Shown: positions 1 to 64,000 of the stretch, one piece after another
How the letters are laid out: every line of letters begins with the position of its first letter
Position numbering within the stretch: position 1 is the first letter of the stretch
DNA from: Diploptera punctata
Lineage: Eukaryota; Arthropoda; Insecta; Blattodea; Blaberidae
Direction of reading: 5' to 3'
DNA length: 64,000 nt
Assembly (NCBI GenBank): GCA_030220185.1
Contig: JASPKZ010007294.1
Location: forward strand, 299,001 to 363,000
Position numbers and translations under genes: made by a program
Notes under the pieces: generated by a model
What the model was told of the DNA's origin: nothing
The model's database searches: none
What the model saw: the letters and a program-made list of their open reading frames with translations, nothing else

Positions 1-557
1 TCCCTCTACAAACCCTGGAAGTTTGTAATGGGAATGCCCCCTTGCCTGTATAGCCTATGCTACTGTATCATTAAATTAATTCCTAAGAAAAATATAAATA
101 CTTAATAGAAAACATAAGGGTAAATATGAAAATGGCAAGTAGGTCTAAGATAAAAACTTAAAATATGTACCTTTCTGGCAGATGCCGTCGTCCTCAACTA
201 GGCCTATATTATATTTAAAATATTATGGAGGCCTTTCGGAAGTTAACTTCTATCATCAACAGGATGAGCTTCTGCTATTAGTTGTTGTTTATGACGATGT
301 AGACTCCAAGTGTCTGTAGCAGCAACTCAGGTCTAAGAGAAGAAAGATTTATATTGTTTTGGGCTATCAACATTATTAACATATATAAAGTTGTTCCCAT
401 TTGTATTCTATGTTTGTCAACACATCTGCAAATTGCTTTATGAAATGTGTGACTTCCCCAGACAAGAATGTTTACAATGAAAGCTGATCTATAAATGGAG
501 AGTGTTAAATCATGGGTGTCCAGAGATGATTCAATTTTAGCATTAATAATTTTATCG
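1..557. other. AT-rich DNA, no gene seen
   Basis: No reading frame here has protein-like composition. Two AGGCCT motifs lie at about 199 and 224 (see findings). The minus-strand open frame crossing into the next repeat is an artefact of the ATT array. Confidence 0.6.
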
Positions 558-660
558 TTATTATTATTATTATTATTATTATTATTATTATTATTATTAT
601 TATTATTATTATTATTATTATTATTATTATTATTATTATTATTATTATTATTATTATTAT
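558..660. repeat. (ATT)n microsatellite
   Basis: An almost uninterrupted trinucleotide tract of about 34 units. It generates the poly-Leu and poly-Asn open frames on either strand, which are not genes. ATT tails of CR1-like and C-family LINEs elsewhere in the window suggest how such tracts may be seeded, but no LINE sequence abuts this one. Confidence 0.97.
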
Positions 661-1011
661 GTTCGCCTTCAACGCCATTTATTTCTAAAAAAATGGTCAA
701 ATAAAGGAATTTGAAGATAGATTTGATTATATTTCGGTTGGATATAAAGTGAATTTTATTTGTAGGTGATGAAGAGATGATAGAATTAAAAAATGTGCTC
801 GCGCATCATCAAAATTGACTGAGCGCAAATATTATGCGCTATTATCATGATTGTGTTCATCATAGCGTTTGAATACCTCTGATTTCTTAATAGTCCTTCT
901 CTACGAATTAGTGCTGGGATTTGATTTTTGGCTTTGGAATCTTTGATATAGTATTTATCCCTATATGGAATTAATTATCTATTATACATTGGTCTGCAGT
1001 TTTAAATACCT
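661..1011. other. AT-rich DNA, nothing identified
   Basis: No coding frame, RNA or repeat that I recognise. Confidence 0.5.
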
Positions 1012-1041
1012 ATATACATATATATATATATATATATATAT
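1012..1041. repeat. (TA)n microsatellite
   Basis: TA dinucleotide tract. The sequence TTTCTTATCATACCATAT directly after it recurs around 1337-1356, beside the tRNA-like element and its own TA tract, suggesting a local duplication. Confidence 0.95.
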
Positions 1042-1260
1042 TTCTTATCATACCATATTAAGCTTGCATTGCTCAGTGTTAAACATTTAATTATAACATC
1101 GATAAAGCGTCACTGCTATAAAGTAAAATAAATATTATCTTTAATTTGCTTACTTGTTATAGTCAGCTACTAGATGGCGGTGAAGACCGAGTTCTCGCGA
1201 CATCTAGTAATAATGGAGAATATAATACATATATAAGAAAAATAAGTGTTTGAATTGGAT

Positions 1261-1333
1261 TCGCCTGGTAGTGTAATGGATATCACGCTGAGGTACAGAC
1301 TCAGAGATCGGGGTTCGAATCCCGTCCAGGCAT
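1261..1333 (+). other. tRNA-like element (decayed tRNA or SINE head)
   Basis: Polymerase III-type boxes are visible: an A-box-like GGTAGTGTAATGGATAT and a B box GGTTCGAATCC. GCCTGG near the 5' side can pair with CCAGGC at the 3' side, giving a tRNA-like closing stem. The T-arm is poor: only CGGG/CCCG pairs, around an 8-nt loop. The unit is flanked by an inverted AGAAAAATAA / TTATTTTTCT. I read it as a SINE head or tRNA pseudogene rather than a working tRNA. Confidence 0.5.
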
Positions 1334-1351
1334 TTATTTTTCTTATCATAC

Positions 1352-1407
1352 CATATATATATATATATATTATATATATATATATATGTGTGTGTGTGTG
1401 TGTGTGT
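1352..1407. repeat. (TA)n(TG)n compound microsatellite
   Basis: A TA tract passes directly into a TG tract, immediately 3' of the tRNA-like element. Confidence 0.95.
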
Positions 1408-1841
1408 ATAGTCGCCCCTATCTTTCGCAAATAGTTCATATTGAATTCTGAACACCACTGATGTTTAAACAATATTACCACATTAAAATTCAATGTATTT
1501 ATTTCGCATAATTCTCAAATTCTTCACATATATATGTTTTTTTCTAATAAAGTCTCTTGTCTCAGAAATTATTTGATTGTCCTCTTCTTTCTCCTCACTG
1601 ACGATTTCACTTAGAGATCAGCAATATTCTGGAACCCCATCCAGACACTTCCAGAGTGGAAGTTTCGAGGGCCGACCTTTCCGGTAGGCATGGACACGTG
1701 TGGAATATTCCCCGCGGGCTTTCCGTTTCGTGACTCGAAGCTCACGAATTCACTAATGCTTCTCTATCATACAAGGCGAGATCGTATTCTCGCCGTCTCC
1801 AGCGAAATCTAAAATCAGCCCAACAATATGTTAAAATTAGA
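1408..1841. other. Unassigned DNA with a GC-richer patch
   Basis: Positions about 1625-1810 are clearly richer in G+C than their surroundings but hold no sustained reading frame. I do not recognise the sequence. Confidence 0.4.
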
Positions 1842-61819: not shown

Positions 61820-62254
61820 TAATGTAACTAACTCGCTGGCACTATCGAAACTGTAGGTTCATGGCTGGGCGGACATAAACTCTCTATACATCCCTATCCT
61901 CAGCTAATGTTTTACAATCATTCCCTGCATAATCTACTTCCTCAAATCATGGTTAATGTTATTCTCCCACCTCATTCTTGGTCTACCAACAGGGCGTTCT
62001 CCTTCTGGTTTTCCTATAAGAAGCTTCCATGCACGATTTTCATTCCCCATTCGTGCCAAATGTCCTGCCCATCGCAGTCTACGAGACTTTACTGTTCTCA
62101 TTATATCTGGCTTCCTATAAAGACCATGTAATTCACTGCTATGTAGTATTTTCCATTCACCTGTCTGTTCAACTTCCTTTGGTCCAAACATTTTCCCAAG
62201 AACTTGATTCTCAAATACTCGTAATCTTCTTTTCTCCCTTAAAGTAAGAGTCCA
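61820..62254 (-). mobile_element. Family A LINE, C-terminal fragment (minus)
   Basis: The minus-strand frame reads FGPKEVEQTGEWKILHSSEL, HGLYRKPDIMRTVKSRRLRW, AGHLARMGNENRAWKLLIGK and GERPVGRPRMRWENNINHD. The 3' end is GATAGTGCCAGCGAG with a (GTTA)n tail at 61826-61836. The 62.19-61.93 kb part is open. Confidence 0.88.
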
Positions 62255-62429
62255 TAATCATATTAAAACGACTTGTCGGCCATTCCGTGAACTTTCTCGT
62301 TGACTGTGAACTTTTTGATTGAATATCTATATTCCATTGTTGTATACAGAATATTATTCAATATTGGGTACTGTGATAAAGTAAATATTTGAATTTGTGA
62401 TAGGCTACTGATAATTCCCATTAGGGGTG

Positions 62430-62875
62430 CTGTTAATGGAGTGTTGCAAGAATATTGGTTCTCCGAAATGTACGCCCAGACAAAATTCTAAAATTTTATA
62501 AAACAATGACTCTTTCAACTCTATTTTATGGCTCTGAAAACTGGACTCTTACTACAGGTAAATTAAATAGGATAGTAGCTGCAGAAATGAAGTTATTAAG
62601 ACCTTTAGTGGGTTATACACTTTATGTCCACATGCGTAATGAAGATATCCGCAAAGCTGTCAATACACCAGCAATAACTGAATCCTTTCAAATATATGAA
62701 AATAATTGGCATGAACACCTTCTTAGAATGCCAAACAATAGACTACCTCAACAGTTATTGAACTACAGACCCACAGGACGAAGAGACCAAGGAAGACCTA
62801 AGAAGAGATGGAGGGATCAATTTCTATCCTGAAGCGGAACAGATCAATGCCTAATCCACCACGTTACTCTTACTT
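62430..62875 (+). mobile_element. Family B LINE, C-terminal fragment
   Basis: Open frame 62455-62832: KILKFYKTMTLSTLFYGSEN, RIVAAEMKLLRPLVGYTL, NWHEHLLRMPNNRLPQQLLN and PTGRRDQGRPKKRWRDQFLS. Then GCGGAACAGATCAATGCCTA, the conserved 3' UTR start of family B. The RT core is missing and the usual tail is absent. Confidence 0.85.
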
Positions 62876-63168
62876 AAAACTTATAAAATTTGTAACATGT
62901 GATAATTTACTTAGATTTTGTTTTACAATATTACTGAAAGGCAACTTCTACGAAATTCCAACGTCACTCCCCTGTTAATTTATAATGATTAATTTTGTAT
63001 TTTTAAATTAATCTTTTAAGTATTATATTTTTTCTAATATACAGTAACAGTTAGGCCTAAGTGGATATTTGTTATTTATTTAATATAACTGTTACCGGTA
63101 ATGACTAACAATAAAGGAAAATTATGTTCTTAATATCGTAAATGATTATTGTTCAATATATATATTGT
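62876..63168. other. Unassigned AT-rich DNA
   Basis: Nothing recognised. TAGGCCTA near 63053. Confidence 0.4.
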
Positions 63169-63500
63169 TCACCGCAGTGATCTCGAGGTAGCGTGCTGGC
63201 TTCTCACGCAGTGGGCCCGGGTTCGATTACCGGTCGGGACAGCCCTCTTGGGTGAGGCTTTTTCGGGTTTTTTCCTCACCTGTAAGACAAATGTCAGGAA
63301 GCTTACGGCCCAACGGTCCCCGAAAATCATCCGGCCATCATCATCATCCTTATCATTATTAGCATCATCCTTCACCGGTGTAGAAAGCAACGGGAAGCTA
63401 CCACACCAATAATTCCCTAGTAAAGCTGCAAAGCATAGCATGAAAATGCAATGCTTGCAGTGAAAGACCTGCCCACGGGCAGAATTAATATGGATGGAAG
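63169..63500 (+). mobile_element. SINE F1, copy 6
   Basis: Full-length F1: CCGGG-TTCGATT-ACCGG T-arm (about 63219), CCTCACCTGTAAGACAAATG, GAAAGCAACGGGAAGCTACC, CATAGCATGAAAATGCAATG and a TATGGATGGA end. It lies between CAATATATATATTG and a TATATATA tract. Confidence 0.92.
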
Positions 63501-63504
63501 TATG

Positions 63505-63537
63505 GATATATACATATATATATATATATATATATAA
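63505..63537. repeat. (TA)n microsatellite
   Basis: TA tract immediately 3' of SINE F1 copy 6. Confidence 0.93.
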
Positions 63538-64000
63538 CTTATATATCACTCTCCCTCGTACTTTCTCTTTTCCTCTTTATCTCTCTGTCTCTTTGTCACT
63601 GCCATAATTTTCCTTAATAAGTACTTTTACTAGTCACAAAACTCCCTGGAATTTCAAGGACAAGGCCTATTTGAACTCTGCGACACATAACTTACATATT
63701 TATTTTAGCACAAGTTGATCTTACTGAATGATGACCTTGAAGACACAACACGAATATAAGATAAGGCAACAAATAAAATGTGCAGATGATGTGGGTGATT
63801 ATGATATTAGTTGATGCTCTAAGAGAATTTGGACTTTCGGTTTTTTTCTTAATACGTGAGCAGAAACTTGAAAAAAAACTTTATCAGGAACAATTGTTCC
63901 TATCATGGGTCAAACTAATCCCCTTGAATCCGAGACAAGAACGTTATGCTTACACAACACAAGTGAATGTCGTGTAAGAAGAAAATAAATATTGAAAGGT
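63538..64000. other. Unassigned DNA to the window end
   Basis: The open frame at 63780-63977 shows no motif. No repeat recognised. Confidence 0.4.

Follow-up and report, generated by a model that had tools for sequence, protein, structure and literature searches.

In the 64,000 nt stretch of contig JASPKZ010007294.1 analysed here (the window), the palindromic octamer TAGGCCTA occurs at about thirty times its expected frequency, has been gained as a 6 bp unit at TA dinucleotides at three sites, and lies in flanks that resemble the target preference of the transposon Tc1. Each copy is probably, by a modest margin over an even chance, the excision footprint of a Tc1/mariner-type cut-and-paste transposon.

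Abundance of the octamer

An exact count gives 22 copies of TAGGCCTA and 36 of AGGCCT, which reproduces the hand counts of an initial annotation of this DNA (about 22 and about 36). The positions listed there fall within 4 bases of the true ones for 20 of the 22 copies, the other two being 45817 (given as 45822) and 58175 (given as 58190). Markov models of orders 0–2 predict 0.62, 0.65 and 0.64 copies, respectively, and a model of order 3 predicts 1.15; orders 4–6 predict 4.5, 11.9 and 17.9, but these models are trained on the motif's own sub-words. Order 3 simulations (n=60) of the window with the microsatellites cut out contain 0–4 copies per run. The over-representation against a Markov background proposed in the initial annotation is thus borne out within the window, and the expectations and simulations together speak against chance or base composition as the source of TAGGCCTA.

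In the raw window four microsatellite words, made up of CT and GAT repeats, outrank TAGGCCTA by ratio. Once microsatellites are masked it ranks first among the 8-mers, with a z score of 37.4 that is inflated by counting the palindrome on both strands (about 26.5, and still first, if counted once). The next 8-mer, AGGCCTAT (z 20.7), overlaps the motif, and the runner-up by ratio among the 16 TANNNNTA palindromes is TACCGGTA, with 3 copies versus 0.4 expected. Copies of TAGGCCTA are not strongly clustered (variance/mean 1.15 in 4 kb bins), and 6 of the 21 gaps between them are shorter than 500 bp versus 3.2 expected; both clustering and a regular spacing of neighbouring copies are disfavoured. 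Their flanks differ from one another, in agreement with the earlier description of unrelated contexts; the differing flanks and the self-comparison of the window speak against a single repeat family as the source.

Gain of 6 bp at TA

For the 22 sites and 7 variant sites, the filled form (with the motif) and the empty form (with TA only) were compared with the rest of the window. A 6 bp gain at TA is well supported at 7774, 13166 and 29182. In the long interspersed nuclear element (LINE) copy carrying the motif at 7774..7781, the empty form scores higher against four of four relatives, and all four LINE relatives show a 6-column gap. Its translation is KRI-GL-RVF, against RRL-RVF or RRL-QVF in three relatives; the fourth (60 kb) was translated in another frame. 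In the short interspersed nuclear element (SINE) copy at 13166..13173 the inserted word is TAGGTCTA, which differs from the motif by a single C to T substitution. Here the empty form is better against five of five relatives by BLAST, and the alignment shows a gap in all six relatives, of 6 columns in five and of 5 columns in the sixth. The third site, 29182..29189, lies in a broken LINE reverse transcriptase gene on the minus strand. The LINE frame (Pfam RVT_1) ends at 29196, 7 bases before the motif, and the next frame reads EWGLNIGLNIKKTEYL, i.e. WGLNI-GL-NIKK, where P0019 and the window LINE at 4552 read LWGLKINMDK. The two extra residues, GL, are fully explained by the motif in this comparison, which was made by eye and across a frameshift.

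The same gain is weakly indicated at 12909, 23531, 23553 and 61697. An exact copy of the motif at 12909..12916 adjoins a SINE copy at its 5′ edge; two other copies are spanned by the empty form and none by the filled form, within a TA-rich flank. The empty form is also better at 23531..23539, a TAGGGCCTA variant, and at 61697..61704, in each case against one relative and with a weak match (35.6 and 36.5 bits, respectively). Gaps of 6 bp occur at 16 distinct query positions in the self-alignments of the window, and 5 alignment rows, representing three events, carry GGCCTA or GGTCTA at TA.

A strong excess of one palindromic octamer, the criterion for a highly iterated palindrome (HIP), is what TAGGCCTA displays in the window, and this raises the possibility of a functional or methylation-maintained palindrome similar to HIP1, with selection or a DNA-modifying enzyme retaining or spreading the word. 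The sharpness of the 8-mer, its density of roughly one per 3 kb and the near-background number of its single-substitution forms accord with such maintenance, as do the relatives at 10703 and 45817, which fit the filled form better. However, the word at 7774, 13166 and 29182 is a 6 bp gain in one transposable element copy and not a point mutation, the site at 29182 sits in a broken gene, and the flanks resemble a transposase target, so that a maintained palindrome is regarded as improbable.

Flanking sequence and target preference

The target consensus of Tc1, CAYATATRTG, was obtained from 83 insertions and held up on 1,659, as stated in the extract of PMC9635669, and is cited likewise in that of PMC8525568. 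Around the joined TA, the 22 TAGGCCTA sites match CAYATATRTG at a mean of 4.14 of 8 positions, versus a background of 2.78 for 5,922 TA sites (z 4.9). For AYATATRT the match is 3.59 of 6, versus 2.46 for 5,877 other TA sites, and 1 in 20,000 resamplings was as high. By its CAYATATRTG flank score TAGGCCTA ranks first among the 43 TANNNNTA words having at least five sites. Second is TACATGTA, the form of a Tc1-type scar, with 5 sites (z 2.4) and a count of 5 versus 2.3 expected. The flanks of the shorter form TAGCCTA/TAGGCTA are also Tc1-like (13 usable sites, z 2.5). The Tc1-like flank match lends support to an origin by excision of a transposon that targets TA and has GG...CC ends.

Outside the 8 bp, the two flanks of a site are weakly symmetrical (p 0.02 at distance 1, and at least 0.088 at the other nine distances), as is expected of a target preference. 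A longer palindrome around TAGGCCTA is disfavoured by this weak symmetry.

Position −1 is depleted in T, which is found in 7 of 44 arms versus 14.8 expected (p 0.007, with arms assumed to be independent), and only 2 of the 22 sites, 50933 and 63052, read TTAGGCCTAA. Two further origins are disfavoured by this depletion. The arthropod telomere repeat is TTAGG, and a break with 3′ TA overhangs, each extended by GG through telomerase, could be blunt-joined to TAGG/CCTA. TTAGG joined head to head contains TAGGCCTA, and a parent element would be unnecessary. Telomerase healing should nevertheless favour TTA ends, and it does not predict the CAYATATRTG context; it is considered very improbable. Likewise, some PIF/Harbinger elements have GGCC ends (mPing), and TAGGCCTA could be the scar of such an element, but a TTA/TAA target predicts TTAGGCCTAA; this origin, too, is considered very improbable.

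Over the whole window there is a mild excess of TACAGTA/TACTGTA, the scar type of Sleeping Beauty (23 versus 12), with flanks that are not Tc1-like (z 0.3).

Excision as the source of the motif

As an excision footprint, TAGGCCTA would be left by an element that had inserted into TA within a Tc1-like target (CAYATATRTG), with duplication of the TA. On excision by the transposase, the donor would keep the last 2 nt (GG) of either element end as 3′ overhangs, and end joining would seal it as TA-GG-CC-TA, with a net gain of GGCCTA. The cut position, two nucleotides inside the 5′ ends, is supplied by ISY100 (extract of PMC2170065); a cut there at both ends, followed by filling and joining, would give TA + 4 bp + TA. 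Alternatively, the cut may leave 4 nt overhangs (GGCC) that are self-complementary. Such ends would pair and rejoin in just one way, which would suit the sharp motif. By way of comparison, the extract of PMC7827188 describes three-nucleotide overhangs for Sleeping Beauty excision, and that of PMC7913693 gives Tc1/mariner footprints as 2–4 bp. Scars would add up at a rate of copies × jump rate per generation along one lineage, and they can far outnumber their parents, since every jump leaves one while copy number can stay level. The transposase and its GG...CC ends are putative, as are the geometry of the cut and the way in which the donor is repaired.

Several observations weigh against this account. 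A relative spans the junction at 7 of the 29 sites only. At 10703 the filled form is better against two of two relatives, by 1.8 and 3.6 bits, and at 45817 the one spanning relative fits the filled form only (64.4 bits). Little weight attaches to the gaps at 23553 and 23531, which change with the alignment program: the former is 6 bp by BLAST, against one 66 % identical relative, and 4 bp by MAFFT, whereas the latter is 7 bp by BLAST, also against one relative, and absent by MAFFT. The flank test was not blind, the consensus having been brought in once the flank counts were known and then verified. The flanks of TAGGTCTA/TAGACCTA show a weak trend at most (4 sites, z 0.7), and those of TAGGCCCTA/TAGGGCCTA are not Tc1-like (3 sites, z −0.1). 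A search of the window for TAGG...CCTA inverted ends returned 28 candidates; among the best 20, the top ones are inverted LINE copies and none is a convincing parent. Pfam scans of 20 of the window's 110 open frames found no transposase domain; 7 of the 20 matched, all to reverse transcriptase. Nor did a known Tc1/mariner element that ends in GG come to light.

The claims of the initial annotation are therefore sustained in part. A 6 bp insertion at TA, which it had read in two LINE copies and one SINE copy, is well supported at 7774, 29182 and 13166, and gaps with GGCCTA or GGTCTA at TA amount to the three events noted among the 16 query positions; 10703 and 45817 favour the filled form. The excision scar that it had proposed gains support from the flanks, a feature absent from that annotation, which fit the published Tc1 target consensus, and TA + 4 bp + TA fits the putative cut geometry; the TA-flanked transposon with GG...CC ends has no convincing representative in the window.

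The missing parent bears on a further alternative, in which no long element was ever involved. GGCC would be added, and TA duplicated, by an enzyme specific for TA, such as a domesticated or abortive transposase of the Tc1 type acting with end joining. The insertion and flank evidence is the same as for the excision scar and fits a direct micro-insertion equally well. To our knowledge no described enzyme adds GGCC at TA directly. It is solely the lack of a known example that holds this alternative back, whereas the transposon scar needs known steps only; direct micro-insertion is judged unlikely.

Other searches for related elements were likewise negative. In a general TA-anchored search of the window, the best 40 of 49 matches are mostly the palindrome at 32.3–33.2 kb, an inverted repeat at 43 kb and LINE copies. 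The extract of PMC10379824 gives no end sequences. Outside the window, LINE-protein locus searches gave 2, 1, 1 and 55 stretches matching a pattern, none confirmed, and SINE-pattern scans gave one stretch (a GC-rich phage-like contig), none, and 36 stretches, with no related eukaryotic DNA among them. Stretches L001–L037 (283,152 bases) contain no TAGGCCTA and have no blastn match to the window, but consist of GC-richer or phage DNA and are a poor control.

A foldback element is located at 8547–8744, with about 192 bp between its ends (GACAGAGAATAAAAAA). It is flanked by TAG on both sides, or by TA with an extra G on one side, and is a weak candidate for a relative of the missing parent.

Decayed and length-variant forms

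Single-substitution forms of TAGGCCTA are near background, at 21 versus 16.2 expected, which suggests that few copies have decayed and that the copies are either young or protected. The rough divergence of the copies since birth is about 3 % per site (5–95 % range 0–8 %), in an estimate that subtracted 15.24 rather than 16.2 expected forms, so that the true median lies slightly below 3 %. The shorter form TAGCCTA/TAGGCTA occurs more often than expected (14 versus 5.7), TAGGTCTA/TAGACCTA number 4 versus 1.54, and the length variants TAGGGCCTA/TAGGCCCTA number 3 versus 0.24. The earlier remark that decay forms are common is thus only weakly true.

Relation to known systems

Known Tc1/mariner scars carry CA/TG or CAG/CTG from the element ends, unlike the GG/CC of the putative scars in the window. 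The footprints of Tc1, Tc3, Sleeping Beauty and ISY100 are otherwise alike in that the TA target is duplicated and 2–4 bp are left, with CAYATATRTG as the target of Tc1 (extracts of PMC9635669, PMC7913693, PMC7827188 and PMC2170065). HIP1 of cyanobacteria (GCGATCGC) is, according to the extract of PMC4390886, also a dispersed 8 bp palindrome in very high excess. HIPs are, however, tied to methyltransferases in bacteria, whereas the copies in the window, at the three best-aligned sites, are 6 bp gains at TA in an animal-like genome. Miniature inverted-repeat transposable elements (MITEs) and internally deleted DNA transposons share with the motif the TA duplications around a short sequence; the motif has only 4 bp between its TAs, which would be too short for mobility.

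Excision footprints as such are already known. No description of a genomic region whose leading octamer is a scar, with the letters GG/CC, was found in the open-licence part of PMC, and among the matches listed no paper title treats TAGGCCTA as a repeat or a scar. The octamer occurs inside a primer for R2-like elements of Blattella germanica, as given in the extract of PMC7650587, a single case of no statistical weight.

Transposon activity is usually read from surviving copies. Scars, if TAGGCCTA is one, would count the jumps themselves, at about 340 jumps per Mb in the window (22 in 64 kb), dated by their decay. The rate at which a DNA transposon excises would become measurable on evolutionary time scales, independently of surviving copies, and there would be a clear prediction for the ends of the missing element. 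A 6 bp insertion bias would also be acting widely, adding two residues in reading frames, for which the site at 29182 in its broken LINE gene would be an example. It is tentatively proposed, as an idea with rather less than an even chance of being right, that a transposon with GG or GGCC ends jumped so often that its 6 bp scars became the leading 8-mer or, in a bolder form, that a TA-specific machine writes GGCC without an element. Micro-insertion without any element would be stranger still.

Location of the sites and other repeats

Exact copies of TAGGCCTA are also located at 199..206, 18137..18144, 19573..19580, 47146..47153, 49134..49141, 50111..50118, 50568..50575, 50933..50940, 57828..57835, 58175..58182, 58356..58363, 61697..61704 (with the one weak empty-form match) and 63052..63059. 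The copy at 18309..18316 has the 13-mer ATATGTAGGCCTA in common with that at 18137; the two are 172 bp apart (18137–18316) and possibly represent a target duplication around an insert. Two copies lie inside dispersed repeats. That at 45817..45824 is matched in the filled form only. That at 10703..10710 is ambiguous, with the filled form scoring slightly better; it reads GCATAGGCCTATAC where the relative at 8065–8228 reads GCATATAC, by eye an empty site, in a family only about 66 % alike. An exact copy at 13258..13265 falls in the AT-rich tail of the SINE with the 13166 site, and a TAGGGCCTA variant is found just beyond it at 13274..13282. The variant at 23531..23539 is followed by an exact copy at 23553..23560. 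The copy at 20749..20756 is just 5′ of a sequence that is tRNA-like by eye and is not called by ARAGORN.

The SINE family is likewise tRNA-like by eye, with AT-rich tails. Six copies (9224–9565, 12001–12350, 12915–13250, 40398–40751, 46285–46649 and 63156–63498) are 79–88 % identical, and a partial copy at 22103–22287 is 72–82 % identical. The LINE frame at 5113–5943 has 19 protein matches, the best being P0002; among the named matches, two Schistocerca proteins come closest, one with 60 % identity over 80 % of the query and the other with 69 % over 60 %. Judged from these LINE protein matches, the host is likely to be an insect.

Direct repeats at 32925–33729 and 36944–37753 are 96 % identical and about 4 kb apart. 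Between them is a 611 aa frame on the minus strand (34128–35960) with no Pfam match and, in a protein search, a single match at 24 % identity; the repeats and frame together look like a young long terminal repeat (LTR)-type element with a gag-like frame. A near-perfect palindrome at 32285–33218, with arms of 454 nt that are 99 % complementary and 26 nt apart, overlaps one of these repeats. A tandem duplication at 42402–42718 comprises 1.9 copies of a 167 bp unit, with 91 % matches.

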